A stretch of 64,000 nt of DNA from Natribaculum luteum (GTDB lineage: Archaea > Halobacteriota > Halobacteria > Halobacteriales > Natrialbaceae), in assembly GCF_023008545.1 (NCBI RefSeq), contig NZ_CP095398.1, positions 744,001 through 808,000 on the forward strand. The letters run 5' to 3'. The notes under the pieces were generated by a model that was not told the origin of the DNA, searched no databases, and saw nothing but the letters and a program-made list of their open reading frames with translations. A program made the position numbers and the translations under genes. Of this stretch, positions 6,205 through 24,797 are shown in pieces. Position 1 is the first letter of the stretch, and every line of letters starts with the position of its first letter.

Positions 6205-9200
6205 GTTCTGGGTTTTCGGTGTCCTGCGACTAGTCCCTGATGTATCGACGAACACCGCACGATCAGTTTCAATCCCGTTCTGGGTTTTCGGTGTCCTGTG
6301 ACACTCGCAGTATCAGGAACTCGTGGACTACCTCGTGTTTCAATCCCGTTCTGGGTTTTCGGTGTCCTGTGACCCGTTGCGCTCGGCGTACCGTTGCGAT
6401 CGGAGTCGGTGTTTCAATCCCGTTCTGGGTTTTCGGTGTCCTGTGACAATGCACCACCGACAGCACTTGTTTTGATGCCACTGAAGTTTCAATCCCGTTC
6501 TGGGTTTTCGGTGTCCTGTGACAGCGAGACCAGGACCGCGAGTGCCGCGGCCGCGATGTTTCAATCCCGTTCTGGGTTTTCGGTGTCCTGTGACAATGCA
6601 CCACCGACAGCACTTGTTTTGATGCCACTGAAGTTTCAATCCCGTTCTGGGTTTTCGGTGTCCTGTGACAGCGAGACCAGGACCGCGAGTGCCGCGGCCG
6701 CGATGTTTCAATCCCGTTCTGGGTTTTCGGTGTCCTGTGACACGGCCGTCGATCATCGTGTGATCAACTCGCCACTCGTGTTTCAATCCCGTTCTGGGTT
6801 TTCGGTGTCCTGTGACTCTCCGTTTCCTCACGGACGTACCGATTCGTGACGGTTTCAATCCCGTTCTGGGTTTTCGGTGTCCTGTGACCGTGTTCGTCAG
6901 ACTGTTCGAAGACGATCCCACTCCGTTTCAATCCCGTTCTGGGTTTTCGGTGTCCTGTGACAACCCGACACACGACCCGAGGACGAGTGCAAGCAAGGTT
7001 TCAATCCCGTTCTGGGTTTTCGGTGTCCTGTGACAATCCGACACACGACCCGAGGACGAGTGCAAGCAAGGTTTCAATCCCGTTCTGGGTTTTCGGTGTC
7101 CTGTGACAGCCAGGGCCGGCACTCTGGAGAATCCCTCCAAAGAGTTTCAATCCCGTTCTGGGTTTTCGGTGTCCTGTGACAACGCGAGTTCGTCGATCCC
7201 ACGCTCGAACAGCGGTTGTTTCAATCCCGTTCTGGGTTTTCGGTGTCCTGTGACGGCCGAGACTGGCGACGACGGCTGGAAGTTCGTGAGTTTCAATCCC
7301 GTTCTGGGTTTTCGGTGTCCTGTGACCATCATAGTAGTCGGCCAGTTTCGCGATGCCACGCATGTTTCAATCCCGTTCTGGGTTTTCGGTGTCCTGTGAC
7401 CCGGCCGCGAGCGGATTTCCTCGGCGATATCTTTCAGGTTTCAATCCCGTTCTGGGTTTTCGGTGTCCTGTGACGATCGCGTTGTCGACGACACTCGTCA
7501 CGCTGGGCTGTTTCAATCCCGTTCTGGGTTTTCGGTGTCCTGTGACGCTCGAGTGTTTCGAGGACCGCGCTGTGTTTCGTCGGTTTCAATCCCGTTCTGG
7601 GTTTTCGGTGTCCTGTGACGCTCGAGTGTTTCGAGGACCGCGCTGTGTTTCGTCGGTTTCAATCCCGTTCTGGGTTTTCGGTGTCCTGTGACCAGTTTCT
7701 TCCCCTCGAGATTTACGTCACCCCACCGAGTTTCAATCCCGTTCTGGGTTTTCGGTGTCCTGTGACCCTGTCGGGCCTCCTCGTTGGGGTCGTGGTTGAT
7801 CAAGTTTCAATCCCGTTCTGGGTTTTCGGTGTCCTGTGACATGCTCATGGCAGATGGACACGACCCGCGCGACGTGTTTCAATCCCGTTCTGGGTTTTCG
7901 GTGTCCTGTGACCTACACGAATCCGTCGCCACACCACCACGCCAACCGGGTTTCAATCCCGTTCTGGGTTTTCGGTGTCCTGTGACAGCCATGGGCCGGT
8001 CCCCATCGATTCTTTCCACTTAGTTTCAATCCCGTTCTGGGTTTTCGGTGTCCTGTGACCGGTGGCACCGACCGATGAGCACCAACACCCACCGTTTCAA
8101 TCCCGTTCTGGGTTTTCGGTGTCCTGTGACGTGACCGCGCGGAAATCGGCCCCGGCCTGTCTTGCGAGTTTCAATCCCGTTCTGGGTTTTCGGTGTCCTG
8201 TGACTCGGCGACCTCCAGACGCTCCGTGATGCCCAGGATGAGTTTCAATCCCGTTCTGGGTTTTCGGTGTCCTGTGACGGCACAAGCCCGCGGCACCCTG
8301 GCGGCGTACTCTGCATGTTTCAATCCCGTTCTGGGTTTTCGGTGTCCTGTGACCATCGCCACGGAGCGGTCGGCCCATAGGACGTAGTGTTTCAATCCCG
8401 TTCTGGGTTTTCGGTGTCCTGTGACACCTCGTAGAAGTCGACAGTAACATCGTCGCCCTGGTTTCAATCCCGTTCTGGGTTTTCGGTGTCCTGTGACAGC
8501 GGCTCCGGCACCAGGATCGACCGCCCCCATCGGTTTCAATCCCGTTCTGGGTTTTCGGTGTCCTGTGACCTCTTGTGCGTCTTGTTCTGAAATCAGTTCG
8601 ACTACCTGTTTCAATCCCGTTCTGGGTTTTCGGTGTCCTGTGACACACCGACGGGAAAGGGAGTACGACCGCTGGCCTCACGTTTCAATCCCGTTCTGGG
8701 TTTTCGGTGTCCTGTGACCCGAACCAGTGACCGCCGCGGTCGAGATCGACGGCGAGTTTCAATCCCGTTCTGGGTTTTCGGTGTCCTGTGACACTCAGAC
8801 CCATCCGAAGCATCATACGCCGCAATAAGTTTCAATCCCGTTCTGGGTTTTCGGTGTCCTGTGACCTGTCGGTTCCTCGAGATCGAGAGACGGGTTTTCT
8901 TCGTTTCAATCCCGTTCTGGGTTTTCGGTGTCCTGTGACCGCACGTATCCTCCGGAAAGGAACGGCAGGAAGATGCGTTTCAATCCCGTTCTGGGTTTTC
9001 GGTGTCCTGTGACACTTCGACGTCCGCGGCATCGAGTCCTGACGTTGCGTTTCAATCCCGTTCTGGGTTTTCGGTGTCCTGTGACATCGTCGTCGCCACC
9101 GCCGTTCAGATACTCGAGGATGTTTCAATCCCGTTCTGGGTTTTCGGTGTCCTGTGACATGACAACATGAGCGATTACATCCGATCGTCTCTGTTTCAAT

Positions 9201-9302
9201 CCCGTTCTGGGTTTTCGGTGTCCTGTGACAGCCTGTCCAGCCGAGTTCGTCCCGACGATGTTCCAGTTTCAATCCCGTTCTGGGTTTTCGGTGTCCTGTG
9301 AC

Positions 9303-9412
9303 AGGGGGTCGAGATACGTCTATCGAAGCTAAAAACGTTGCTCCTCGAGCGAAAATCAGTTCGTCGTTCGTGGACTGGGGCTATCCACGGCGTTTAAGAG
9401 AGTCGATGAAGA
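9303..9412 (-). promoter_or_regulatory. CRISPR leader of array 1
   Basis: A 110-bp AT-richer stretch between the first repeat and the csa3-like stop codon. Read leftward it contains the inverted repeat CGTGGA-N9-TCCACG (9369-9389), a TATA-like AACGTTTTTAG, and TCTCGACCCCCT touching the first repeat. Leader 2 (19948-20064) has the same inverted repeat with the same 66-nt spacing to its first repeat, the same AACGTTT box and the same CGACCCCCT end. This sets the array's direction. Confidence 0.85.
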
Positions 9413-10066
9413 TTAGCAGTTGCCATCAATACGCAGGTACAACTCGCCGGCGAACGTCAGCTCGACGACCTTCGTCCGCCCGTGTTTTTCGGTCTGAACG
9501 AGTCCCTCCTCCTCAAGGAGATTCACGTGACGCGTGATCGAACTCTTCGACCGGTCCAGTTCCTCCGTGAGCGTCGGGGTCGAGACGCGATCAACGTGAT
9601 CCGCAACCGCTTCGAGCGTCGAAACGACGTTCTCTGGGACTGAAGCCGTTATCATAGGTGACTCGAGTTCGCGAACTGCGCCGTCGATATCGCTAAACGT
9701 CACCATCGTGGCGATCGCCTCGCTATGAACCAGCGCGGCCGTTGTCAGCGGGACAAGAATATCACGGGCTCCTCCTCCAAGGTTGACGATGACGTCCCCG
9801 TCAGCACCGATGATAATCTCACTGCATTCGAGGACGGCTGCCGCGTAGTCGTCGTAAGTGATCCACTCGACCGTGAGCGTCACATCAGGCTCGATCTCGT
9901 TTAGGAGTCGCTCGACATCTCCAATCGCTTCCGTCGCGCGCTGCCCGTCGGATTCCTCATGTGGACGGAGAAGTCGGATTTCATCTCCCGAATCGAGCCC
10001 TCGACTGAGAACGGGTCGAACGACGCTGGTGGAGTTATAGCCGATCGGGGAGACGTACGTACGCAT
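9413..10066 (-). CDS. csa3: Csa3-like CARF-HTH transcriptional regulator
   Basis: A 217-residue protein from ATG 10066 (MRTYVSPIGY); upstream in-frame ATG 10078 and TTG 10081 are alternatives. Residues ~1-125 form a Rossmann-like CARF domain with LGGGARDILVPL, the glycine-rich ligand loop typical of Csa3. Residues ~135-217 form a winged helix (TPTLTEELDRSKSSITRHVNLLEEEGLV). Csa3 proteins in Sulfolobales regulate adaptation genes and leader transcription, probably with a cyclic oligonucleotide ligand. Here the gene is divergent from cas6 and ends right at leader 1. It could bind the shared leader inverted repeat; that is inference. Confidence 0.85.
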   Translation of the reverse strand: MRTYVSPIGYNSTSVVRPVLSRGLDSGDEIRLLRPHEESDGQRATEAIGDVERLLNEIEPDVTLTVEWITYDDYAAAVLECSEIIIGADGDVIVNLGGGARDILVPLTTAALVHSEAIATMVTFSDIDGAVRELESPMITASVPENVVSTLEAVADHVDRVSTPTLTEELDRSKSSITRHVNLLEEEGLVQTEKHGRTKVVELTFAGELYLRIDGNC

Positions 10067-10212
10067 ATTCTCCCCCATCAATTACGATCAGGAAAAATCC
10101 ATCGTTGCACGTAGGTGAAATCGACAGGCGACAATTGCTGTTCTGCGCAACCGTTTCAAATTCCCGATAGCTTTATTTGATCTCTGTCCGACGATTAGTG
10201 CGTGCGGATTAC
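10067..10212 (+). promoter_or_regulatory. Divergent promoter region between csa3 and the cas operon
   Basis: This 146-bp gap separates the two starts. A TATA-like TTTATTTG at 10171-10178 lies about 35 nt before the cas6 ATG at 10213, a plausible archaeal core promoter for the rightward cas operon. No clear palindromic operator is visible. Confidence 0.5.
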
Positions 10213-11073
10213 ATGGGACAAGAAAAAGTTTCGCGTGCTAGATGTGTTACGCTCACCGTTCGACCGACCGAGCGGTTTCCAGTCCCGAAATCAGACGGCT
10301 ACCCCCTCTACGGGGCACTCCTCAGCGTTCTCGACGATGCCGACGAATCGGTGAGTCAGCGCGTCCACGATTCCCCACTCGGGAGTCTACACAACAGTGG
10401 GCTCCAGGGCGCTTTCGGCGAGAGCGATCGCCGACATCACAAGTCGGTTCGTCCGGACGAGACATACGAGATCACGCTCGGGATCGTCGATCCCGACGAC
10501 GAGGCGGTGTTCCAAGCGCTCGTCAAAGAACTCGTCCTCGAGGGGTCGACGATCGAGCTGACCAACGGCACGCTCCGGGTGGAATCGTTCGAAAGTGAAA
10601 ACGCGAGCCACGAGGAGTTACTCGAGCGCGCGAGCGAGGCTGACGATCCCGCGGTCACGATCCGGTTCCAGACGGCGACCTGCCTCGAGGAAGCCGACGA
10701 GGTGACGACGATGTTCCCTCATCGGGTTGCGGTGTTCCGGTCGCTGTTGACTAAGTGGAACCGGACTGCACCCGAAGAACTGGAACTCGAGCTAACGCGA
10801 GACGCATTGCTCTCATCGGTAATCGAGAAACCCAACGCGCGTGCGTACAGGACACATAGCGTATTGGTGAATCGAGTCAAGAACGACGACGGTGAGACGC
10901 GAAACCTGTTCAAGCAGGGATTCAGCGGCGAGTGCACCTATGCATTCAAGGATGCGAGCGAGTCCGTCCAGAACGCCGTCGTAGCACTCGCGCTGTTCGG
11001 TGGGTATAGTGGCGTCGGGAGCGCCGTTGCTCGAGGGTGCGGGAACATATATGTAGAGGTAACCGATGGATGA
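10213..11073 (+). CDS. cas6: Cas6 crRNA-processing endoribonuclease
   Basis: A 286-residue protein from ATG 10213 (MGQEKVSRAR); an upstream in-frame TTG at 10177 would add 12 residues but sits in the promoter region. The sequence fits the two-ferredoxin-fold RAMP plan of Cas6, ending with the glycine-rich loop GGYSGVGSAVARGCGN near the C-terminus. Cas6 cuts the repeat RNA 8 nt upstream of the spacer, leaving the AUUGAAAC handle predicted from both arrays. It is first in the cas operon and its stop overlaps the cas10d start by 4 nt (ATGA, 11070-11073). I cannot assign the catalytic histidine with certainty. Confidence 0.88.
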   Translation: MGQEKVSRARCVTLTVRPTERFPVPKSDGYPLYGALLSVLDDADESVSQRVHDSPLGSLHNSGLQGAFGESDRRHHKSVRPDETYEITLGIVDPDDEAVFQALVKELVLEGSTIELTNGTLRVESFESENASHEELLERASEADDPAVTIRFQTATCLEEADEVTTMFPHRVAVFRSLLTKWNRTAPEELELELTRDALLSSVIEKPNARAYRTHSVLVNRVKNDDGETRNLFKQGFSGECTYAFKDASESVQNAVVALALFGGYSGVGSAVARGCGNIYVEVTDG

Positions 11074-14000
11074 ATAATCAAGACAACAATCAACAATATA
11101 GCCTATATGATTTCGGTGGAGGACCAGCGGAGACAGAGACAGACGAGAACAATGGTGAGTCGACATCAGGCGTTGAATCGTTCTCACCAGAGCTCTTTGA
11201 AGACCCAGACGGAGCATTTGCTCCAGATGAAACAGAGACAGATGACCAAGCTGGTCTCAATGAGGTGTTTAAAGAATATCTATCGGAAATAGATGGCAAA
11301 CTCGTTGAGGCGGGCTGGCTGTTCCTTCCGAACAAGAGTATTGAATACGGGAAGGTCGACCAATCGATGCTCAACCACACGCGGAATCTCGTTTTCTTCC
11401 TTCATCGTTTGGCAACGCAGGCCGAAGCAGCAGGATTGCCACCAATTTCACCAAACGAACTCCGTGATTTAATTGCGCTCGCAGTTATCCATGATTATCA
11501 CAAACTTCGAGAGGAAGACGAAAACCGAGCAAAGAGGTTTGATATAACTCTCGCAGAATTAGAGCCCTTCATTGATGAAATCCGCCTTCAGGAATTCAGT
11601 AAAGATCCGTCTGTTGAAAACTCGGAGCTAACAATACGTGATTTTCGGTCGTGTGCTGTTGATCACCATGCAACCGACAATGCGAAGTCGACAAACGTCA
11701 CCCTCAAATGGAAAGACTACCGCTCACTCATCCGTCTCGCGGACGGCATGGCGTCGTCGACAACGCCCGAAATGGCGGCTAATTCACGGGCACAAGAACA
11801 GTTTAGTAAGTGCTTCCCAGGAACGGATGTTGAATTGTCATATCACCATCTTGATCACGTTAGTGGGGTTTTTACTAATTTGCTCAATGCAGCAATAAGT
11901 GAATCTCTTGAGGAGACATTTGAGTACACACTACTCACAATCTATCAAGATGGGTGTGTCTATCTTTCACCAACAGAGTCATCCCCAGAGCCTACTGATA
12001 AGTTCGTAGATAATGTATATGAGAAATTAAGTCAGAACATAAGCGATTCGCATCCGATATATAGTGATACCGACTTGCTTGCGGAAGATATCGGAACAGT
12101 AAATCTCGGACATTACAGCCTTAATGCGTCCGAGTTCTTTTATGCAGGTTCTGAGAGAGTAACGCGGGCAATTGTGACAAAAGGAGTGACAGATGGTTCT
12201 GCTGATGAGGAACCGACCGATTCGGCTTTGGAATCAATGGAACTTCTAGAAGAGGATCTGGGACGTGAATTGTATAAAACAAGTCAATTATATGGAATGG
12301 CTCGCTTTGTGAGTACACTTCGTCGAGGAATCTTACCTGATTTCCTGAACAATACAGGGATGACATCTGACGAAGGTATACGTACTACTGGACGTGTGTT
12401 AGGTCTATCAGATCGTACTGCGAACGAGCTTATATCGCTACCTATGGAATCAAAAGAGAGGTTGGTAAGCGGAAATAAATGGGAGTTCTCATATGGCTTT
12501 GCTCAAGCGTTGCTTGAAAAGTATGGTGAGGGGCCAAAGATTCGAGAGGCGAAATCTGAGATCATCCAAGATATAGAATCTGGTCTAGACTCACTCACCG
12601 ATAACGGCGATTGGAGAGAGCTCCTCAGAGAAAGTTACTCTGGTGGCTATCGTACAGAGGTTGTTTTATTTATAAAGAAACATCTTCGAATCGGGTCTAA
12701 TTCACAACAAGAGACCGGTGCTCTTACCGACACATATCATCAGTACGCAAAAACGTCTCGACGCGGACGGATATGTTCGCTCTGCTCGGGTGGACTGAGT
12801 GAATCACATAATCTTGGAGATATGCAGCCATCTAGTGATGTTACGATAGTTCGTGGGGGTTTCACAAACAGAGACCCGATTGGAAGTGGTAAACGGGATA
12901 ATAGAGTAATATGTATTCCCTGCCAAATTGAACTATCGTTGCGAGGTGCGGCTAGTAGTAATCGATACAATGGCCGACTATTCATCCATCTCGCACCGGA
13001 TTATTTCTATACTCCATTTGCATGGAGACTCTTCAGTCGAGTTACCAACCGGTTTACTGGGGAAAGTCGTGTTCGGATAGGTAGACTGGCTGAGGAAGTC
13101 TTTGATATTGATGAATTAGATGCATTCAATGAGGTGATGACAGAACTCACACAATCCGATGGAGGCCGACCGATGCTTGATTCGCTGTCTGGTGGGTTTG
13201 ATCAAGAAGCCCAATATGGTGCTCAAGTTGTCGGCTATTTCAAGGACCTCTACTCAGATGGAGGAAATGATACGGAGTTCCAATTCTTTGGAGCATTCCT
13301 CGCACTTACTATCAGTGCTTACACTGGTATGAGAGTACATCTCAGTTCGTCTCCAATCCCAGAAATGAGGTCCCGAGATTTCCAAGAGTTCGTTAACATA
13401 GGAGGGGGCTTCACGCAGGTGTCGAATTTCTATGGTGAGTCGGTTCCACTCTCAACCTTGCAGAATCGTCTTCAAGCGGCATCATCACTGATCAAATTAG
13501 GATATGCCCTACAGGGAGATTCTCGGAAAGATTCATTGTTCGCAAAATATCTTCGTGTAACGCGTAATGAACTGCTCCCTGGGTCGCACCTGCTCAAGCG
13601 TGCCGCCCAGTCCTCAAGTGAGGGGCCGTATATTCCTGCCCTGATGAGGTACGCAGTCACGCTTGACGAACAGGCCAGTATCAAACAATTCGAACCAAAC
13701 ATGAGTGACACACCACACAGCCGCATTACGAAGCTCGCGGATCTCGCATACGACGCCATTCGTCCTGCAAGCGGACATGGGCGCAAACCCCACCGCGTCG
13801 AACGCGTGTTCCGTGAGAGTGTCAAGGCGGTCTCGAAAACAGGCGACCAGTTGAGCCGAGACGATTACGTGATGCTCGTCTCGGGACGATTGCAAAAAAT
13901 GCTCGACAGACAAGCTGGAGACTCGGTGTATCCAGTGAGTGCAGAGGACTCAAATGCGGGCACACCACTCCAGGACCGTATCGAGGAGTATGCTGGCTTC

Positions 14001-14180
14001 TTCATAGATGAAATACTCTACGGGATTGCCAACGGTCGCCCATCACAGCTGAAACGACTCGAAAACAACCTTTCGGACGGCTTTTTCGGTGCGACACTCC
14101 GTGCAGAATCGGAGTACTACGATGCACGTGACGAGGAAAGCCAAGACGACGATGCAGACAACAACCGGAGCAATCAATGA
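11070..14180 (+). CDS. cas10d: Cas10d, large subunit of type I-D Cascade with HD nuclease domain
   Basis: A 1036-residue protein from ATG 11070 (MNNQDNNQQY), overlapping cas6 by 4 nt. Residues ~110-215 form an HD phosphohydrolase domain: HD at 141-142 (AVIHDYHK) and DHH at 198-200. This is the Cas3''-type nuclease moved onto the large subunit, the hallmark of type I-D. A zinc-ribbon pair follows: CSLC at 569-572 and CIPC at 615-618. No GGDD cyclase motif was seen, as expected for Cas10d. The C-terminal ~160 residues look alpha-helical and may be made separately as Cas11d from an internal start. The body of the gene is more AT-rich than its last 600 bp and than cas1/cas2. Confidence 0.93.
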   Translation: MNNQDNNQQYSLYDFGGGPAETETDENNGESTSGVESFSPELFEDPDGAFAPDETETDDQAGLNEVFKEYLSEIDGKLVEAGWLFLPNKSIEYGKVDQSMLNHTRNLVFFLHRLATQAEAAGLPPISPNELRDLIALAVIHDYHKLREEDENRAKRFDITLAELEPFIDEIRLQEFSKDPSVENSELTIRDFRSCAVDHHATDNAKSTNVTLKWKDYRSLIRLADGMASSTTPEMAANSRAQEQFSKCFPGTDVELSYHHLDHVSGVFTNLLNAAISESLEETFEYTLLTIYQDGCVYLSPTESSPEPTDKFVDNVYEKLSQNISDSHPIYSDTDLLAEDIGTVNLGHYSLNASEFFYAGSERVTRAIVTKGVTDGSADEEPTDSALESMELLEEDLGRELYKTSQLYGMARFVSTLRRGILPDFLNNTGMTSDEGIRTTGRVLGLSDRTANELISLPMESKERLVSGNKWEFSYGFAQALLEKYGEGPKIREAKSEIIQDIESGLDSLTDNGDWRELLRESYSGGYRTEVVLFIKKHLRIGSNSQQETGALTDTYHQYAKTSRRGRICSLCSGGLSESHNLGDMQPSSDVTIVRGGFTNRDPIGSGKRDNRVICIPCQIELSLRGAASSNRYNGRLFIHLAPDYFYTPFAWRLFSRVTNRFTGESRVRIGRLAEEVFDIDELDAFNEVMTELTQSDGGRPMLDSLSGGFDQEAQYGAQVVGYFKDLYSDGGNDTEFQFFGAFLALTISAYTGMRVHLSSSPIPEMRSRDFQEFVNIGGGFTQVSNFYGESVPLSTLQNRLQAASSLIKLGYALQGDSRKDSLFAKYLRVTRNELLPGSHLLKRAAQSSSEGPYIPALMRYAVTLDEQASIKQFEPNMSDTPHSRITKLADLAYDAIRPASGHGRKPHRVERVFRESVKAVSKTGDQLSRDDYVMLVSGRLQKMLDRQAGDSVYPVSAEDSNAGTPLQDRIEEYAGFFIDEILYGIANGRPSQLKRLENNLSDGFFGATLRAESEYYDARDEESQDDDADNNRSNQ
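13701..14180 (+). CDS. Possible internally initiated Cas11d small subunit within cas10d
   Basis: In type I-D systems a small subunit is known to be translated from inside cas10d. Here an in-frame ATG at 13701 (cas10d residue 878, MSDTPHSRITK) would yield 159 residues of charged helical sequence, close to a small-subunit size. No strong Shine-Dalgarno sequence precedes it (ttcgaaccaaac). ATG 13646 (MRYAVTLDEQ) is an alternative. This is inference from family knowledge; the sequence only allows it. Confidence 0.35.
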   Translation: MSDTPHSRITKLADLAYDAIRPASGHGRKPHRVERVFRESVKAVSKTGDQLSRDDYVMLVSGRLQKMLDRQAGDSVYPVSAEDSNAGTPLQDRIEEYAGFFIDEILYGIANGRPSQLKRLENNLSDGFFGATLRAESEYYDARDEESQDDDADNNRSNQ

Positions 14181-15166
14181 TCTCAGATACACTCACCACA
14201 GCACTGGAGAACGGTACAGTTTCGATGGACGGAATGACGAACACCCCTGGAACAAACTATACGACAATTCTCACTCTCCGTGAGCTAGAGAGCCACGCGG
14301 TCTTCACGACGAACGGACAAGACGCGGATATTGCGTCGCTGTCCGTCGTTGGTGAGAATTCGAGTATCGAGTATTCGCCAGGGATCATGTTCATGCGAAA
14401 ACAGACGGGAAGCGACCGTCGGATGGGGAAAGCAATCCAGCGAGAGCTACTGGAGTATGACCGCCCAGATTCGATGGAAGTCAATGATATGAATCCTCAG
14501 TCGGTTGAATCCGCACTCTACGGGAGTGCAGCCAGCGGTGACGACGATGTCGACATTGGCGTCACCTCTCGTGTGATGTATGACACGGCGTTTACCGTTC
14601 GTGACGCCAGTGCGTGTATCGATGAGAAGTTCCAGAACGCGCCCGGAGAGGGATACGCAAAAGGATCACGTTCAACGATCCGTGAGCCAGACTTCTTCGA
14701 ACCAGGGACACTGTTCCCGTGTGCGATCACCCTTCGAGATGCGACTCCGGCTGAAGTCGCGTTTGTCGTTGCAATCACGAAACGAAACAAGCGGTACGGA
14801 GCTGCAACAACGCGACTTGGTCGTGTGAAAAACCACATTCTCGGAGTGTACACCGGCTCTGAGGAAGGACCCTCTAACCGAGAATTGACGGCCAACGTAA
14901 TCACATCGTTTGCCGCAGACGACGAACAGACGCTCAGTGATGTAGTTCAGGCACCAGCACTCGACGTTGTACAGGCATGTGAGTACGTCAAAGATGCCTA
15001 CGATGCAGCCTGCGAGAACAAGATTGCACAAGAACCGGTTGATGAGGAGATAGTTAACGAGTTGCTTTCGCTGGCGGATGACGAGGAACTACAGGCGATT
15101 CTTGAAGCACAACGGCCACGCTCAGAGGCGTTTATCGATGGCGCAATCGACACTGACGGAAACTAA
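14177..15166 (+). CDS. csc2: Csc2, Cas7-type backbone subunit of type I-D Cascade
   Basis: A 329-residue protein with ATGA overlap to cas10d (14177-14180). It fits the Cas7/Csc2 family: early TTILTLRELESHAVF, a central FFEPGTLFPCAITLRDATP, and TTRLGRVKNHILGVY, the region that ends the RAMP fold. Csc2 proteins polymerise along the crRNA to form the Cascade backbone. Length is normal for the family. The operon position between Cas10d and Csc1 is the canonical I-D order. Confidence 0.9.
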   Translation: MISDTLTTALENGTVSMDGMTNTPGTNYTTILTLRELESHAVFTTNGQDADIASLSVVGENSSIEYSPGIMFMRKQTGSDRRMGKAIQRELLEYDRPDSMEVNDMNPQSVESALYGSAASGDDDVDIGVTSRVMYDTAFTVRDASACIDEKFQNAPGEGYAKGSRSTIREPDFFEPGTLFPCAITLRDATPAEVAFVVAITKRNKRYGAATTRLGRVKNHILGVYTGSEEGPSNRELTANVITSFAADDEQTLSDVVQAPALDVVQACEYVKDAYDAACENKIAQEPVDEEIVNELLSLADDEELQAILEAQRPRSEAFIDGAIDTDGN

Positions 15167-15174
15167 AAAGGCCC

Positions 15175-15921
15175 ATGAAAGTCATCGAAGCAACGCTCAC
15201 CACACACGGAAAAGTCGGCTTCGCCTCACGTGAAGTTGGCCGAATGACGGATACGGACTCCTGTATCCTGAATACGGCACTCCACTACGCACTCGGTCTT
15301 GCCAGTGGTCGTTATGTCGATGTTAGTCATCAACCAACATACATTGAAGACACCGCTGAGATAGTAAATGACGTATACGTTACCCCTGCGGCACCTGCTC
15401 GTGTCGAGCGAAATGAGTCGATAAAAACCGAGTATATCACGACGAATCGAAATGCTCGGAGCGACACCTACGCGACACCAAATTATCCTGCGACGGATGA
15501 TCCAACTGGGAAATCCAGCAAGAACCTTCCGACGTTCGAACGGGAGCGGGCACTCGCCCCTGAAAACGTGTTTCGGTTCTATGTGTTCCCGTACGGTCGG
15601 GATGCAACCGAGGTCGCATCGCAACTTCCATCGTACATTCGTCTGGGAAAAAAGCGTGGGAAAGGGCATGTTAGCTACCGAATCGTCAACGGAGTCCGTC
15701 GTTCCGGAGAGTTCACGCTAGGGCATCCACTCAGTGTCTACGATCACGAAACAACACCTATCGGTGGTGTTGTAATGAAACAGATGCAGCCGACGCCAGT
15801 CTGGTTCGAAGCCGAGTTCGATACAGAGTATTATGCGATCGAATCACCCTTCCGAAATCAGTCACGTGTCTGCTATCCTGCTGATGCAAAATTCTTAGCT
15901 ACAAAACGGAACGATGTCTAA
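15175..15921 (+). CDS. csc1: Csc1, Cas5-type subunit of type I-D Cascade
   Basis: A 248-residue protein starting 8 nt after csc2 (ATG 15175, preceded by aaaagg). It fits the Cas5/Csc1 family: an N-terminal beta strand MKVIEATLTTHGKVGFASRE, then LPSYIRLGKKRGKGHVSYR, which resembles the RAMP glycine/lysine-rich loop. Csc1 caps the 5' handle end of the crRNA in the Cascade complex. Its end overlaps the cas3 start by 8 nt (15914-15921), pointing to translational coupling. Confidence 0.88.
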   Translation: MKVIEATLTTHGKVGFASREVGRMTDTDSCILNTALHYALGLASGRYVDVSHQPTYIEDTAEIVNDVYVTPAAPARVERNESIKTEYITTNRNARSDTYATPNYPATDDPTGKSSKNLPTFERERALAPENVFRFYVFPYGRDATEVASQLPSYIRLGKKRGKGHVSYRIVNGVRRSGEFTLGHPLSVYDHETTPIGGVVMKQMQPTPVWFEAEFDTEYYAIESPFRNQSRVCYPADAKFLATKRNDV

Positions 15922-18067
15922 TCACGATCGAGTTTCGTTTCAGCTTGCAGGGCTCGGTCTGCGAATGTACCCCGGAGAGTACCCTGTAGATGATGTAACT
16001 CCGCATAAACATCAGTGGGCACTTTACGATGCACTCACAGATTGTCTTCCTGGATTGTTTGTTGACGATGCCCCAACTGGAGCCGGTAAGACGCTTGCAT
16101 GGCTTGCTCCCGTCGTAGCCGAAGGACTTCAGACAGTAGCAATATATCCAACAAATGCACTTATTGAAGACCAGGTACGGAACATCAACGAGAAGCTTGA
16201 CGATGTCGACGGGGGAGATGATGTACGTCTTCTTGCTGTGACTAGCGAAACACTCCAGAACGAGCACGCCGAACAGTTCCCATCGGCTAACTCAAATGGG
16301 GAACGGCTTCGAAAATTGCTCACAGTGGCGTTCAATAGTCAAGAGACCGTTATTCTTCTCACAAATCCGGATATATTTGTCCTTCTTCGCCGGGAGATAT
16401 ATCGAGAGAGAATTGACGCAATCAATCGATTTGAGGTAGCGGTCATTGATGAGTTCCATCGGGCAACACGGAAGGAGCGAAATACGATGCTCTTTCTACT
16501 CGATGAAATGTATGAGACTAATGAAGCAATCTGTCGGCTCAAACATCTTGTATTCCTCAGCGCAACTCCAGAAAAAGAACTCGAACGCCAGTTTGAGGAG
16601 GCAATGGCCGCGCCGTACTATCGTGTTAGTGAGTTAGAATGGCGACAAACACCACATCCAGCCGTTGGCACTGATGAGGAGTCAGTGATTGCATTTGCTC
16701 CTGACGAACTCCCGCCAGACTACCGAGCAGTGCTACCACCAGTCGACCTGACAATCACACCTGCGCCGACATTTGAGACTGCCACAGAGATTCTCAATTC
16801 GGAAGATGTGTTGCATGATCGATTGAAGAACGGTAGGACGGTCATGATGATTGACGGGGTCCATGAAGTCGATCGCGTTTATCATTCGTTGTCTCAATCA
16901 GGTCTTGAAGGAACTGTTCGAATCGATGGCTTTCACCGTGACAACGTGCGTGAAAAGATCAATTTATTCGAGACCTTAGTAAGTAATTCTGCTGTTGAGG
17001 TTGGTATCGACTTTGACACAGAGCAAATCCTATTCTCTGGTCACGACGCGGCGAGTTTTTTCCAACGACTTGGCCGGCTCAGAACCCGCTCTGATCGATC
17101 TACAGCGTATGGATATGTACCACCATATCTATTCAGTACACTTGAATCAATGGCCGACAGATATACTGGCCAATGGGTTGATCGAGCAACATTCGAAGAA
17201 CTTGTTAGTTCAGAGTATGTTGACTCATCAACACCGGAATCGTTCGACTGGCGATACTCGGCTGTTGAAGCCTATGACCACATTGAAAAACAAGCAGAGG
17301 GTGCACCATCAGACGACCAACCAACAATACGAGAGACAGGCTGGAAACGTATTGAACGTCATTTCTTCCACAATCATGAGAACGGACTTACCGAGGCTGA
17401 CCTAAAACGATTGCATGATATTGCAGGCTCACGGCTTTTAAATACGCTCCAGACCTATCGCGGGGACAGCATACAGACAGTAGTCTACAATAGTCAGTCA
17501 CAGACACTCCAGACATACAGTATTCCATACCTACTCCGTTATGGTAATGTCTCGTTCCATTCAAAGACTGAGTTTCTCGCCCTCATTCCAGAACACTTGC
17601 ATCACCACGTTTCACGGCTTGAACCATACAGTAGTGGCTACTGTCTCTATCAAGGCGGTTATAAAAACGAAGAAGATACCACGGAGAAAGGCCAGTCAAC
17701 TGGGCGGTTAGTCACCTACAAAGCAACTGGTGAATTGTACTCGCTATTAAGTAATGTCTCTCGGGATATTCGGACACCGAAAGTCTGCACTGGACTCGAG
17801 ATCGAGACAGAGCCGAGCGTCAGAGGTCTCGATTTATTGAAAGAAGATCTCTCGGAGACGGAGGTTCTCTGTTATCCGTTAGAGGGCCACGTTTCCCAAA
17901 TACGGAACCAATATTCACTTGATCCCTTTAAATTCATATATCCACTATACTATACAGAGAGCAATGCAGCGGTCGCATTCAGTCATGATGCGCTTTATTT
18001 ACATTGCCACGTCCAAGATCGGATAGAGGCTGAATCAAACACGATTGACGAGGTGCTTGATTTTTGA
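15914..18067 (+). CDS. cas3: Cas3' helicase of type I-D (no HD domain)
   Basis: A 717-residue superfamily 2 helicase. Walker A is APTGAGKTLAW (Lys near 59), motif II is DEFHR (179-183), motif III is SATPEKE (from 216), and motif VI lies around FFQRLGRLRTRSDRS. There is no HD nuclease domain, which fits I-D, where that domain is on Cas10d. Cas3' unwinds target DNA after Cascade binding. The C-terminal ~250 residues are unlike canonical Cas3 but in line with I-D proteins. It overlaps cas4 by 4 nt (TTGA, 18064-18067). Confidence 0.92.
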   Translation: MSNHDRVSFQLAGLGLRMYPGEYPVDDVTPHKHQWALYDALTDCLPGLFVDDAPTGAGKTLAWLAPVVAEGLQTVAIYPTNALIEDQVRNINEKLDDVDGGDDVRLLAVTSETLQNEHAEQFPSANSNGERLRKLLTVAFNSQETVILLTNPDIFVLLRREIYRERIDAINRFEVAVIDEFHRATRKERNTMLFLLDEMYETNEAICRLKHLVFLSATPEKELERQFEEAMAAPYYRVSELEWRQTPHPAVGTDEESVIAFAPDELPPDYRAVLPPVDLTITPAPTFETATEILNSEDVLHDRLKNGRTVMMIDGVHEVDRVYHSLSQSGLEGTVRIDGFHRDNVREKINLFETLVSNSAVEVGIDFDTEQILFSGHDAASFFQRLGRLRTRSDRSTAYGYVPPYLFSTLESMADRYTGQWVDRATFEELVSSEYVDSSTPESFDWRYSAVEAYDHIEKQAEGAPSDDQPTIRETGWKRIERHFFHNHENGLTEADLKRLHDIAGSRLLNTLQTYRGDSIQTVVYNSQSQTLQTYSIPYLLRYGNVSFHSKTEFLALIPEHLHHHVSRLEPYSSGYCLYQGGYKNEEDTTEKGQSTGRLVTYKATGELYSLLSNVSRDIRTPKVCTGLEIETEPSVRGLDLLKEDLSETEVLCYPLEGHVSQIRNQYSLDPFKFIYPLYYTESNAAVAFSHDALYLHCHVQDRIEAESNTIDEVLDF

Positions 18068-18681
18068 GCACACCACAGACGATCGGACAGCGTGATACAC
18101 TCGTACCGGTGAGCGCGCTAAATGAGTTCGTCTACTGTCCACGTCGGTTTTATTATCAGCACTATCATGACGAGATGGGGACCCCATATGAGCTTGTAGA
18201 TGGCCGATCAAAACACGAAAAACAATCACAGAGGGGCGGATGGATCACGGAGCGATATTTCAGAGCAGCCGAACTTAGTCTGCATGGAAAGATTGATTTG
18301 ATTGAATCGGACGGGGATTTACTCACACCTGTTGAGCGAAAACGTGCTGAGAGTGGACAGTATTTTCCAAGTGATGAGATCCAGCTTGCGGGGTACTGTA
18401 TGCTACTTGAATCTGCAATTGAAGAGCCGGTTAATGTCGGCTATATTTATTTGTATAAAACTGACGAGCGGTATGCGATCCAAATTACGGAAAGTCACCG
18501 GGAGACGGTACGGAAGATCATCGATAAGATCCAATCACTGTCCGTCGACTCCATCCCTCCACTCACAGATAATCCTAAGAAATGCGAAGCGTGCTCGGCT
18601 CGCGAATACTGCATGCCTGCTGAAACAGCCCGTCTCGAGCCGGAGAAAGCTCGCGGAACGGGCTGGGAGGGGCAAATATGA
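18064..18681 (+). CDS. cas4: Cas4 PD-(D/E)xK nuclease with Fe-S cluster
   Basis: A 205-residue protein. The best start is TTG at 18064, overlapping the cas3 stop by 4 nt; no ATG lies near. The four cluster cysteines are visible: C25 (VYCPRRFYYQ) and C174, C177, C183 (CEACSAREYC). The nuclease core is GKIDLIESDGDLL then VERKR, the Asp and E-x-K of the PD-(D/E)xK fold. Cas4 trims prespacers and helps select those with a PAM before Cas1-Cas2 integration. Its stop overlaps cas1 by 4 nt (18678-18681). Confidence 0.93.
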   Translation: MSTPQTIGQRDTLVPVSALNEFVYCPRRFYYQHYHDEMGTPYELVDGRSKHEKQSQRGGWITERYFRAAELSLHGKIDLIESDGDLLTPVERKRAESGQYFPSDEIQLAGYCMLLESAIEEPVNVGYIYLYKTDERYAIQITESHRETVRKIIDKIQSLSVDSIPPLTDNPKKCEACSAREYCMPAETARLEPEKARGTGWEGQI

Positions 18682-19673
18682 AGGCACCGGAGGGGATGTT
18701 CGACGAATCGGTCATCTACGTAACTAAACAGGGAGCGCAGGTGCAGGTCGACGGTGGTCGGATCGTGATCTGGGACGTCGACGGAGACGAGGGCGAACTG
18801 GCCTCGTTCCCAATCGAGAAGCTCGACACGATCAACGTCTTCGGTGGCGTCAACTTCAGCACACCGTTCGTTGCTCGAGCGAACGAACACGGGATTGTCC
18901 TCAACTATTTCACCCAGCACGGCAAGTACCGCGGGAGTTTTGTTCCCGAGAAGAACACGATCGCCGAGGTGCGACGAGCGCAGTACGATCTCTCCAGAGA
19001 GAGGGAACTCGATATCGCCCGGCAGATGATCGCCGGGAAGATCCGTAACGCCCGGACTCTTCTCTCCCGGAAGGGCGTTCGTGGAACGGATGTCCTGAAA
19101 GACCTCGGTGTCCGCACGGAGTCCGATGCGACGAAAGACGACCTCCGAGGTACGGAAGGCGAGGCCGCAGAGCGGTATTTCCAGCTTCTCGATGAGACAC
19201 TCGCCGACGGCTGGATGTTCGAGAAGCGCACGAAACGACCACCCGAAGACCACATCAACTCGCTGCTGTCGCTGACCTATGTCTTTATGAAAAACGAGGT
19301 CCTGTCAGCGCTTCGCCAGTACAATCTCGACCCGTTTCTCGGCGTGTTGCACGCTGACCGTCACGGTCGCCCATCGCTTGCGCTCGATCTTCAAGAAGAG
19401 TTCCGTCCGATATTCTGTGACGCTTTCGTTATACGACTTGTCAACCGTGGCGTGGTCAATCATGACGATTTCCGCAAGGACAACAGGTTGAGCGACGGCG
19501 CTTTCAAAACATATCTCGAGAAGTTCGAAGATTACATGAACGAGGAGCTGACTCATCCTCATTTCGAGTACACAGTCACTCGCCGGAAGGCAGTCAGACA
19601 GCAGGCGATTCTCCTCCGAAAAGCGATCACCGACGAGCTCGACGAGTACCACCCTCTGACGTTCGCGAGGTAG
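18678..19673 (+). CDS. cas1: Cas1 spacer integrase
   Basis: A 331-residue protein of normal Cas1 length. The metal-binding residues are present: E160 in RGTEGEAAERYF, H225 in LGVLH, and D237/E240 in LDLQEEFRP. The N-terminal beta domain includes KLDTINVFGGVNFSTPF. With Cas2 it integrates prespacers at the leader-repeat junction; two leaders with matching sequence flank this operon. The ATG overlaps cas4 by 4 nt. From here the gene is more GC-rich than cas10d-cas3, which may reflect modular exchange of the adaptation genes. Confidence 0.96.
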   Translation: MKAPEGMFDESVIYVTKQGAQVQVDGGRIVIWDVDGDEGELASFPIEKLDTINVFGGVNFSTPFVARANEHGIVLNYFTQHGKYRGSFVPEKNTIAEVRRAQYDLSRERELDIARQMIAGKIRNARTLLSRKGVRGTDVLKDLGVRTESDATKDDLRGTEGEAAERYFQLLDETLADGWMFEKRTKRPPEDHINSLLSLTYVFMKNEVLSALRQYNLDPFLGVLHADRHGRPSLALDLQEEFRPIFCDAFVIRLVNRGVVNHDDFRKDNRLSDGAFKTYLEKFEDYMNEELTHPHFEYTVTRRKAVRQQAILLRKAITDELDEYHPLTFAR

Positions 19674-19674
19674 C

Positions 19675-19947
19675 ATGCGTCTCGCAATCGCCTACGACGT
19701 CAGTGACGATGCGAACCGACGGCGAGTGTATCGAACTCTCGAGCGGTATGGTGCGTGGAAACAGTACAGCGTCTTCGAGCTCGAGATCTCGAAAACTGAG
19801 CGCGTGGAGCTTGAAGACGAACTCGAGTCACACATCGACCCGTCTGATGGAGACCGAATCCGGATATATTACCTCTGTTCCGGGTGTCAGGAAGCGACGA
19901 CTGATCTTGGTGCCGAGCAGCCCGACGAGTCTTCGAACGTAATCTGA
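19675..19947 (+). CDS. cas2: Cas2 adaptation subunit
   Basis: A 90-residue protein with the Cas2 start MRLAIAYDVSDDANRRRVYR, the conserved early Asp, and YGAWKQYSVFELEI on the second strand. Cas2 is a ferredoxin-fold dimer that bridges two Cas1 dimers in the integrase complex. It starts 1 nt after the cas1 stop and is the last gene of the operon; leader 2 begins right after it. Confidence 0.95.
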   Translation: MRLAIAYDVSDDANRRRVYRTLERYGAWKQYSVFELEISKTERVELEDELESHIDPSDGDRIRIYYLCSGCQEATTDLGAEQPDESSNVI

Positions 19948-20064
19948 GGGGCAGTCTTCATGGACCTTTATTAAGCTCGTGGATAGCCCCAGTCCACGAA
20001 CAACGAGTCCCGAATAGTGTGCTGAGAAACGTTTATCTGAGTTCTACACGAATATCGACCCCCT
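19948..20064 (+). promoter_or_regulatory. CRISPR leader of array 2
   Basis: A 117-bp stretch between cas2 and the first repeat. It holds TTTATTAAG, the inverted repeat CGTGGA-N9-TCCACG at 19978-19998, a TATA-like AACGTTTATC about 30 nt before the array, and ATCGACCCCCT joining the first repeat. Leader 1 has these parts in the opposite orientation, with the inverted repeat at the identical 66-nt distance. Array 2 is therefore transcribed rightward. Confidence 0.85.
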
Positions 20065-23000
20065 GTCGCAGTGGACAGAAAACCCAGCACGGGATTGAAA
20101 CTGAACGCGAGTATCGACAGCAGGAGCGTGACGACTGTCGCAGTGGACAGAAAACCCAGCACGGGATTGAAACTTCCCGTCGATGTACAAGCGGTCGCCG
20201 TCCTCGAGGTCGCAGTGGACAGAAAACCCAGCACGGGATTGAAACCTTGTCGTCCATCATAACGACCATTGCTGGCGTCATACCGTCGCAGTGGACAGAA
20301 AACCCAGCACGGGATTGAAACAGATAGACGACAGCAGTATCGATAGCCGCACTCATCTGTCGCAGTGGACAGAAAACCCAGCACGGGATTGAAACGCGGG
20401 AGTGGCTTCGGACGGTGCTGACTTTAATAATGTCGCAGTGGACAGAAAACCCAGCACGGGATTGAAACATAGATGACCTGTTTTCGATACTCAGCCATCT
20501 CCCGGTCGCAGTGGACAGAAAACCCAGCACGGGATTGAAACCGGGAAAGTGGTGTTAGAGAGGCAACTATGCAGGAAAAGGTCGCAGTGGACAGAAAACC
20601 CAGCACGGGATTGAAACACAGTCGGTGACTGATCTGCTGGTTCGTAGTCGTCAGGTCGCAGTGGACAGAAAACCCAGCACGGGATTGAAACAGGGCTCGT
20701 TCATGTGGCTTCCCGACTGGTAGCGTAGACGCTAAGTCGCAGTGGACAGAAAACCCAGCACGGGATTGAAACTCATCTGGACTTCGTCGTGCGTGTAGAC
20801 GTCCGCTGCCTGTCGCAGTGGACAGAAAACCCAGCACGGGATTGAAACTTACTCAGCCCGGTGAGGAACTGCACACGGCAATCAAGTCGCAGTGGACAGA
20901 AAACCCAGCACGGGATTGAAACGGTCTCGCCGACCGGGAGGGTGGTCTGGCCGCCGTGTCGCAGTGGACAGAAAACCCAGCACGGGATTGAAACCGATCT
21001 ACGCCGACGACGCGCCGGTTGCGAGTCCGGTCGCAGTGGACAGAAAACCCAGCACGGGATTGAAACACGGGTCCGGCGATCGCCCAGGACTCCCCCGCAG
21101 GTCGCAGTGGACAGAAAACCCAGCACGGGATTGAAACAGAGCGTCCGACTGCGGACGTCTCGAGCGGACGACGGTCGCAGTGGACAGAAAACCCAGCACG
21201 GGATTGAAACATCTGAAGGTCATTATCACGGCTCAAGACAGTGCGACCGGTCGCAGTGGACAGAAAACCCAGCACGGGATTGAAACGCACCCGAGAGAGT
21301 TCGTTGGCTGTGCGGAGTGTGGCGTCGCAGTGGACAGAAAACCCAGCACGGGATTGAAACATGCTCGTCGGGGAACTGCTCGAGTGTTTCGAGGGTCGCA
21401 GTGGACAGAAAACCCAGCACGGGATTGAAACACACCTACGCCGTCTACAACTCCGCCGACGACTCGTGTCGCAGTGGACAGAAAACCCAGCACGGGATTG
21501 AAACAAACTCGCGGATGTTCCGCTGCAGTGGGTTATCGTCGTCGTCGCAGTGGACAGAAAACCCAGCACGGGATTGAAACATTGGTTCGGTAGGAGTAGA
21601 TGCATCAACAGCAAACCGTCGCAGTGGACAGAAAACCCAGCACGGGATTGAAACGATCTGGCCGCGGGCACAGCTCGCACAGCGCGTGCCGAGTCGCAGT
21701 GGACAGAAAACCCAGCACGGGATTGAAACACACCCGACCTGCGGGTGCCGTCACAGACCAATCTGGTCGCAGTGGACAGAAAACCCAGCACGGGATTGAA
21801 ACCTACCGGTGAGGTACGTCCCGTTGGTCTGGCCGTGTCGCAGTGGACAGAAAACCCAGCACGGGATTGAAACTTCCGATGGATCGCCACCACGATGGGG
21901 AATCTGCTGTGTCGCAGTGGACAGAAAACCCAGCACGGGATTGAAACGTGTGGACGAAAGTCGACCCGGAGCGTGGGGACGAAGTCGCAGTGGACAGAAA
22001 ACCCAGCACGGGATTGAAACCGAAGACGGCTATTTCGAGTTCGACGAAGATCGCTTCGTCGCAGTGGACAGAAAACCCAGCACGGGATTGAAACCGGGCT
22101 GCGCGTCCGATCTCGGTCAGGGACGGCACGTCGCAGTGGACAGAAAACCCAGCACGGGATTGAAACGAACGGGATCGTTTATCGGGACGCAAGGGTCCGC
22201 AGGTCGCAGTGGACAGAAAACCCAGCACGGGATTGAAACTGTCCATCGGAATCTCGGTCGGTGTCGTGTCGTGTCGCAGTGGACAGAAAACCCAGCACGG
22301 GATTGAAACTGCGAGGCCAGGTGACACAACTCTCGGAACCGAAGCGTCGCAGTGGACAGAAAACCCAGCACGGGATTGAAACTCGATCGGTCCGGCACAC
22401 CCTCTTTCGTGAGCAAGTCGCAGTGGACAGAAAACCCAGCACGGGATTGAAACTGTCCATCGGAATCTCGGTCGGTGTCGTGTCGTGTCGCAGTGGACAG
22501 AAAACCCAGCACGGGATTGAAACTGCGAGGCCAGGTGACACAACTCTCGGAACCGAAGCGTCGCAGTGGACAGAAAACCCAGCACGGGATTGAAACTCGA
22601 TCGGTCCGGCACACCCTCTTTCGTGAGCAAGTCGCAGTGGACAGAAAACCCAGCACGGGATTGAAACACCCCGACGACGTGCCAGTGGACGCCGAGGCCC
22701 AGGAGGTCGCAGTGGACAGAAAACCCAGCACGGGATTGAAACTGCCACCCGACAAGGCCGAAGAACTCGGCCTTCTCGTCGCAGTGGACAGAAAACCCAG
22801 CACGGGATTGAAACTAGGGTTCGCGGTCGTACTCAGCGGGGGCGAACGCGTCGCAGTGGACAGAAAACCCAGCACGGGATTGAAACAGACCGAATCTATG
22901 AATATCGGTCGCGGGTTCGTGCTCGGTCGCAGTGGACAGAAAACCCAGCACGGGATTGAAACAGATCCAAGCTCGGTCCAAAGAACGAGTCGACCGCGTC

Positions 23001-24797
23001 GCAGTGGACAGAAAACCCAGCACGGGATTGAAACTTGGCGACTTGTCTCGATCCGCAGCCGGGACACTGTCGCAGTGGACAGAAAACCCAGCACGGGATT
23101 GAAACCGTTACTCATAGAACCACCCCCGAATCCGCTGGAAGTCGCAGTGGACAGAAAACCCAGCACGGGATTGAAACACGATCGCGAACCCTACGTCCCC
23201 GACTCCTACTTTCGTCGCAGTGGGTCGCAGTGGACAGAAAACCCAGCACGGGATTGAAACATAAACAGGAACAGTGAGACAAACGCGAGTCCAACTGTCG
23301 CAGTGGACAGAAAACCCAGCACGGGATTGAAACATTGTTGATCCGAAGATTTGACACACGAAGGTCCCCGTTGTCGCAGTGGACAGAAAACCCAGCACGG
23401 GATTGAAACACGGCTTGGTCAGGTTCCTTCGGGGTGAGATGGACGCGTCGCAGTGGACAGAAAACCCAGCACGGGATTGAAACTAGACACCGGGGTCTTG
23501 GTGTACCACCCGTTCCGCGGGGTCGCAGTGGACAGAAAACCCAGCACGGGATTGAAACGGTGCGGCCGACCGACGTCGTGTGTCCGCAGTCTGGTCGCAG
23601 TGGACAGAAAACCCAGCACGGGATTGAAACACGTGATGGTCTCCGTGACCGTCTCGGTCGTCTGTGGTCGCAGTGGACAGAAAACCCAGCACGGGATTGA
23701 AACCCGGTCTCGTCGTCAAACTGCATGACGGCCCGATCAGTCGCAGTGGACAGAAAACCCAGCACGGGATTGAAACTTGCTGAGCTTGCCGGCCTGCTGG
23801 TTGTGGGTAAGGTCGCAGTGGACAGAAAACCCAGCACGGGATTGAAACCCGTCGACGACAGATGATGCGAATAAAGCAGTTCGTCGCAGTGGACAGAAAA
23901 CCCAGCACGGGATTGAAACCCGTCGACGACAGATGATGCGAATAAAGCAGTTCGTCGCAGTGGACAGAAAACCCAGCACGGGATTGAAACCATACTCGGG
24001 TCGCTCCTCGTCATCAGACTGCATCGAGTCGCAGTGGACAGAAAACCCAGCACGGGATTGAAACGATGATGATGATGATGCGTCACGAGGCAAGTCGGAG
24101 TCGTCGCAGTGGACAGAAAACCCAGCACGGGATTGAAACCAGTCTTCGCCGAGCCAGAGACGCCCGTCTTTCGAAGTCGCAGTGGACAGAAAACCCAGCA
24201 CGGGATTGAAACCGCGCTCGCGATCGAGACGACGGACGATGCCGCGGATGTCGCAGTGGACAGAAAACCCAGCACGGGATTGAAACCTGAAACGCATTCA
24301 GGGACTCACGGACTCCTTCCGGTCGCAGTGGACAGAAAACCCAGCACGGGATTGAAACAACGATGCTCGTCTGTCTGCGGCTGGAGCGTTCACGGTCGCA
24401 GTGGACAGAAAACCCAGCACGGGATTGAAACCGTCGCTCCTCGAGCCGGGGTAGCGCGATCTCGACGGTCGCAGTGGACAGAAAACCCAGCACGGGATTG
24501 AAACCGAGAGAGATGAGTATGCCGGATTTGACTTCGGCTTGTCGCAGTGGACAGAAAACCCAGCACGGGATTGAAACGCATCGCGCATATACTCAGGGAC
24601 CGGCTGGATATCGTCGCAGTGGACAGAAAACCCAGCACGGGATTGAAACGTTGTCGGGGAAGGACTGGAGCCGAGCAGCTTCGCGGGTCGCAGTGGACAG
24701 AAAACCCAGCACCGGATTGAAACAGCGGAGTGTTCGACTCGATGCCGAGGACGTAGTTGTGTCGCAGCGGACAGAAAACCCAGCACGGGATTGAAGA
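20065..24797 (+). CRISPR. CRISPR array 2 (type I-D), 65 repeats, 64 spacers
   Basis: The 37-nt repeat is GTCGCAGTGGACAGAAAAC followed by CCAGCACGGGATTGAAAC. The first is at 20065-20101 and the pitch averages 73.4 nt. It is a variant of array 1's repeat in the opposite orientation. The leader-distal repeats decay: 24687-24723 has CACCGG for CACGGG, and the last at 24761-24797 has GCAGCGG and ends GAAGA. A three-spacer block 22203-22416 is repeated exactly at 22417-22630; spacer 23849-23882 equals 23920-23953. At 23214-23223 ten bases of repeat start (gtcgcagtgg) are duplicated just before the full repeat at 23224. Confidence 0.98.

Follow-up and report, generated by a model that had tools for sequence, protein, structure and literature searches.

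A two-fold symmetric 44-nt element at a fixed distance from the first repeat of archaeal type I-D CRISPR arrays is a probable docking site for spacer integration

The findings below bear on how Cas1–Cas2 finds the first repeat of a CRISPR array in organisms without IHF. A 64,000-nucleotide (nt) stretch of Natribaculum luteum (contig NZ_CP095398.1; hereafter the window) has a complete type I-D locus, in which the cas genes are flanked by two arrays that both read outward. Both leaders carry CGTGGATAGCCCCAGTCCACG 66 nt ahead of the first repeat. The original prediction for this DNA held that both leaders have an inverted repeat with an identical loop, separated from the first repeat by exactly 66 nt, and this is exact: CGTGGA-N9-TCCACG occurs just twice in the window, at 9369–9389 on the minus strand (leader 1) and 19978–19998 on the plus strand (leader 2), in both cases with the loop TAGCCCCAG. 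The AACGTTT box and the sequence CGACCCCCT are common to both leaders, as had also been noted. Three exact copies of the palindrome are present in the whole 4.6-Mb genome, the third with a different loop, so that this loop is found only at the two leaders. We show here that the palindrome lies within a larger conserved element, a precise and phylogenetically supported 44-base pair (bp) candidate of fixed phase for the site by which the first repeat is found.

We used Csc2 to gather type I-D loci from 391 genomes of Halobacteria and from genome contigs, giving 69 non-redundant leaders, one of them (L087) from an ANME-2 archaeon. These align nearly gap-free over about 110 nt ahead of the first repeat and share one order of parts: a left arm TTCRTSGACC, a TATA-like box TTTWTNAA, a short variable stretch, the box TGTACAGC (GTACRG in summary form), usually CCCC/GGGG, and a right arm GGTCSAYGAA. 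The half-sites are about 34 bp apart, and the centre of the element lies some 86 bp upstream of the leader–repeat junction. In leader 2 of the window it occupies 19957–20000 (plus strand), beginning 9 nt past the cas2 stop codon, with left arm TTCATGGACC (19957–19966), TATA-like box TTTATTAA (19967–19974), TGGATAGC (19980–19987) and right arm AGTCCACGAA (19991–20000). In leader 1 it occupies 9367–9410 (minus strand), beginning 2 nt past the csa3 stop codon, with left arm TTCATCGACT (9401–9410), TATA-like box CTCTTAAA (9393–9400), TGGATAGC at the place of the GTAC box (9380–9387) and right arm AGTCCACGAA (9367–9376). The two copies score 47.6 and 43.5 bits, respectively, against R1, our sequence-only model of the element.

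The inner palindrome is not itself conserved in this family. It is complete in 5 of the 69 leaders, and no covariation between its pairs was found across them. Where the window has the left arm CGTGGA, the family has NNTGTA, so that this arm stands in place of the TGTAC box; the right arm of the palindrome is the family right arm, the true partner of which lies further upstream (TTCATGGACC or TTCATCGACT). Given its rarity and the lack of pair covariation, the palindrome is a local elaboration within the larger element, and it fails the refutation test that came with the original prediction, as most of the leaders do not have it. It is also present, for example, in one leader of L065, the locus with outer genes closest to those of the window.

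We next considered the outer dyad in 67 aligned elements. Paired bases fill 84.8% of its cells, against 24.6–44.5% in slid registers, and changes on both sides number 33, against 18.8 ± 3.1 in shuffles, none of 500 of which reached 33; the shuffles keep relatedness in, so these figures are supportive rather than exact. The clearest swap between the arms, T–A to A–T at position 2/43, was seen in eight cases (Fisher P = 6 × 10−8). The central pair of the arms is near random, failing to pair in 29 of the 67 elements, and mismatches occur often. Since the arms covary and their central pair does not hold, the outer dyad is best read as two half-sites for a protein and not as the stem of a hairpin. 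A cruciform or RNA stem–loop, acting as terminator of the upstream gene or as a structure bound by Cas1, would fit the perfect inner palindrome of the window, the close succession of the element to the csa3 and cas2 stop codons, and the preference of Sulfolobus islandicus Cas1 for stem–loop single-stranded DNA. We nonetheless consider it highly improbable, as compensatory pairing does not extend along the whole stem, the loop would be 24 nt long, the inner palindrome is not conserved and the element has no Rfam match. The earlier idea, a DNA site of the kind that proteins bind, set at a constant distance, is kept, with the unit redefined as the outer 44-nt dyad together with the TATA-like and GTAC boxes.

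The distance between element and array is nearly invariant. In 68 of the 69 leaders, exactly 66 nt separate the end of the right arm from the first repeat, the exception having one extra C in a run of C; two leaders in the set (L041 and L057-) are in register by their central boxes, with the arms displaced or changed. We also scored 21 leaders that belong to other classes of the phylum, using a leave-one-out matrix and setting the repeat start by hand for G408 and L231. Of these, 18 have the element at 66 nt, and the remaining 3, all of one genus, have it at 65 nt. The intervening 64 nt have drifted to a mean identity of 46% with leader 2 of the window (range 27–64%) without change in length, whereas the gap between the upstream cas2 stop codon and the element can be anything from −2 to 59 nt. 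Length is therefore strongly constrained downstream of the element and not upstream of it. Such constancy is required for geometry relative to the integration site and not for a promoter or operator, so the rigid phase points to a structural connection of the element with that site, like that of the upstream leader motifs in types I-E and I-F (PMC12259127, PMC10212523), and favours a docking site of the adaptation machinery over a plain operator. It also disposes of the view that the two leaders are alike by chance or through a recent duplication. Their shared ancestry within one locus would have allowed for this, but about 90 leaders from many lineages carry the element in this phase, and we regard the explanation as refuted. 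The likeness that had first been noticed between the two leaders is thus not due to chance, with a conserved unit larger than first described.

Strong matches to the element are almost confined to leaders. The matches of R1 in the 391 Halobacteria show a clear gap in score, and of the strong ones inspected outside known I-D loci, nearly all lie ahead of CRISPR arrays, orphan arrays and dispersed mini-arrays included; one, at L095, has no recognisable array. No strong match was found at a gene promoter in these genomes, and arrays with other types of repeat lacked the element wherever a check was possible. It was likewise not found in bacterial I-D or Cas1d-bearing loci without Csa3 (Synechocystis pSYSA and others, most with a WYL regulator), the best position weight matrix score being below 0 in bacterial loci L162–L167. 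The element can thus be used to recognise I-D arrays, orphan arrays among them. Some occurrences are unusual in their own right. Two genomes of genus g73 (G337 and G360; L104–L106, L108, L111–L113) each have about ten dispersed mini-arrays with the unusual repeat CTTTCAACTGTGCCAGCGGCGACGAAGGCATTGAAAC, each led by the I-D element. Genome G316 (L095 and L096) has copies of the element with no or a very short array and no cas1 detected in the genome, possibly a relic.

Two further blocks are conserved nearer to the array. One, at −41 to −29 (mean information 0.94 bit), is a proximal box resembling a transcription factor B recognition element (BRE) and TATA box, found around AGCAACGTTTTTA at 9331–9343 (minus strand) in leader 1 and around AGAAACGTTTATC at 20024–20036 (plus strand) in leader 2, and is likely to be an array promoter, P2. 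The other, at −12 to −1 (0.98 bit), is a leader–repeat junction block ending in CGACCCCCT, at 9303–9314 (minus strand) and 20053–20064 (plus strand). The element could itself be an operator and promoter only, with its TATA-like box serving as array promoter P1 and its arms as Csa3 half-sites over the BRE and start site that control array transcription. Its layout resembles that of an archaeal promoter with a flanking operator: between inverted half-sites there is a TATA-like box (TTTATAAA, TTTTTNAA) whose position is conserved. The box is kept in three leaders that lack the proximal BRE/TATA box (L041, L087 and L159) and would need P1, and in Sulfolobus both the arrays and the genes for adaptation are activated by Csa3a (PMC9456107, PMC4333418). 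This reading does not explain why the spacing to the repeat is exactly 66 nt or why no copies were found at promoters of cas or other genes, and both features set the element apart from such promoters. In many halobacteria, moreover, the box reads TTTTTGAA, a poor TATA box. We therefore consider a role in transcription alone unlikely. The original prediction had offered a Cas1–Cas2 anchor or a Csa3 operator; these remain the best two candidates, with the pure operator now the less likely: the spacing to the integration site holds firm across deep divergence, and promoters yielded no copies. Retention of the TATA-like box in leaders without the proximal box leaves room for a coupled promoter. 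An anchor joined to a TATA-like box would mean that TBP-type or Csa3-type leader binding replaces the IHF bending of bacteria in archaea, and that transcription and integration compete for the same DNA, a combination that we think distinctly unlikely.

The explanation that we favour is that the element is probably a site, distal in the leader, at which the machinery of spacer integration docks, with Csa3, Cas1–Cas2 or both as its readers. The symmetric, bipartite 44 bp would be bound by a symmetric complex, the intervening DNA would bend to bring that complex to the leader–repeat junction, and Cas1–Cas2 would then insert new spacers at the first repeat only. A dimeric Csa3 acting with Cas1–Cas2, as in S. 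islandicus, would be the likeliest direct reader, with direct reading by Cas1–Cas2 a close alternative. The candidate readers are encoded in the locus: csa3 (9413–10081, minus strand) for a regulator with CARF and a MarR-type winged helix-turn-helix (TIGR01884, 75.8 bits; PF22662), cas1d (18678–19673, plus strand) for the integrase (TIGR04093, 391.6 bits), and cas2 (19675–19947, plus strand; TIGR01573).

Leader anchor motifs are already a known kind of site. We found no description of the archaeal I-D element in the literature searched, and it may have been described before. The nearest parallel is in the type I-A system of S. islandicus, where Csa3a binds both Cas1 and an imperfectly palindromic distal leader motif (−143 to −94) beside a csa3-bearing adaptation locus, and where mutation of this motif cuts acquisition of two to four spacers 15–200-fold (PMC9456107). 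That motif differs in having no reported invariant phase and in belonging to another subtype, with another sequence and another Cas1. The footprint of Csa3a at the csa1 promoter is 40 bp, about the size of the element (PMC4333418). In type I-E, type I-F and cyanobacterial type I-D leaders, an upstream motif similarly helps to dock Cas1–Cas2 (PMC10212523, PMC12259127). Cas2 of type I-F makes contact with inverted-repeat motifs that are conserved in the leader (PMC12259127), and a bending factor has been proposed between motif and repeat (PMC10212523, PMC12259127). The archaeal element differs from these bacterial motifs in having a TATA-like box between symmetric half-sites and in its absence from the bacterial I-D loci searched, including Synechocystis pSYSA.

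Cas1–Cas2, with or without Cas4, could instead read the element directly and alone, Csa3 being merely a transcription factor of the locus. This variant, which overlaps in probability with the docking site read by Csa3, Cas1–Cas2 or both, is possible if doubtful. It would account for the fixed phase and for half-sites about 34 bp apart, near the length of spacers and repeats, it fits the presence of the element with close Cas1 but no Csa3 in genome G408, and it has a precedent in the C2-symmetric type I-F integrase with its contacts to leader inverted-repeat motifs. The presence of csa3 in all complete halobacterial I-D loci speaks against it. Distances between leader-2 elements correlate best with those of Cas1 (0.74) and Cas2 (0.67), but without L041 the values are 0.50 for Cas1 and 0.47 for Csa3, and leader 1 gives no such correlation; much of the correlation with Cas1 is therefore explained by linkage and one outlier. 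A mirror-tree comparison of the element arms with Csa3, Cas1, Cas2 and the effectors had at first favoured Cas1; on these values Cas1 and Csa3 stand level, and we no longer read a preference from it.

Several results weigh against Csa3 as the reader, or fail to single it out. One lineage, genome G408, carries the element at 66 nt from its repeat together with close Cas1 and Cas2, and no Csa3 was found there by protein or family search; of its CARF-like proteins, found some 75 kb off, the one examined belongs to the HFX_2341 family. Csa3 may thus be dispensable, as judged from one imperfect case in which the array is nearly gone (about two repeats). Csa3a in S. islandicus also binds the cas1 and csa1 promoters (PMC4333418), whereas here we saw no clear site at the divergent csa3/cas6 promoter: R1 found no full element, and half-sites were not clearly enriched, being near shuffled expectation in most loci (mean of the best half-site 6.3, against 4.7 shuffled and 14.2 for true halves). 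The distance correlations do not separate Csa3 from Cas1, given linkage and the single outlier. Finally, L041 has changed arms and yet a recognition helix of the ordinary kind in its Csa3. We set L041 aside as a natural experiment, since divergence there extends to Csa3, Cas6, Cas1 and Cas2 alike and the changed dyad is displaced by 2 nt. This locus (genome G322) combines the usual effector genes (Csc2 82% identical to that of the window) with very divergent Csa3, Cas1 and Cas2, a different junction and 50 repeats. No element-bearing array was found at Csa3 loci without I-D genes (L116–L128), which therefore carry no weight either way; L118–L128 have full-length Csa3 homologues, and these loci have no Csc2 and no array that we could find.

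Across halobacterial I-D loci, pairwise distances of the outer genes csa3, cas6, cas1 and cas2 correlate with r of 0.54–0.74, and those of the inner genes csc2, cas3′ and cas4 with r of 0.89–0.97, against about 0 to 0.28 between the two groups, with csc2 giving about 0 against the outer genes. We conclude that these loci consist of two separately inherited modules, csa3–cas6–cas1–cas2 outside and csc2–cas3′–cas4 inside. In the window, the outer genes are closest to L065 (Csa3 75%, Cas1 92%) and the core to L075 and L040 (85–94%). Because Csa3 and Cas1–Cas2 travel together, sequence comparison alone hardly separates them as readers of the element. A separate observation concerns Cas4, which belongs with the effector core and not with Cas1–Cas2 (window 9413–19947; loci L035–L088).

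The locus of the window comprises csa3 (minus strand), cas6, csc3, csc2, csc1, cas3′, cas4, cas1d and cas2. Its type I-D assignment is supported by matches above cut-off to TIGR03174 (Cas10d/Csc3), TIGR03157 (Csc2), TIGR03159 (Csc1), TIGR03158 (I-D Cas3′) and TIGR04093 (Cas1d). In another genome, G224, two near-identical complete I-D loci (L049 and L050) lie about 61 kb apart. Array 1 of the window (6266–9302, minus strand) has 42 exact 37-nt repeats, GTCACAGGACACCGAAAACCCAGAACGGGATTGAAAC, and array 2 (20065–24649, plus strand) has 63, GTCGCAGTGGACAGAAAACCCAGCACGGGATTGAAAC. Spacer–repeat units of array 2 are tandemly duplicated at 22199–22626, as an exact duplication of 214 nt, and array 1 has a similar tandem duplication of 147 nt at 6407–6700.

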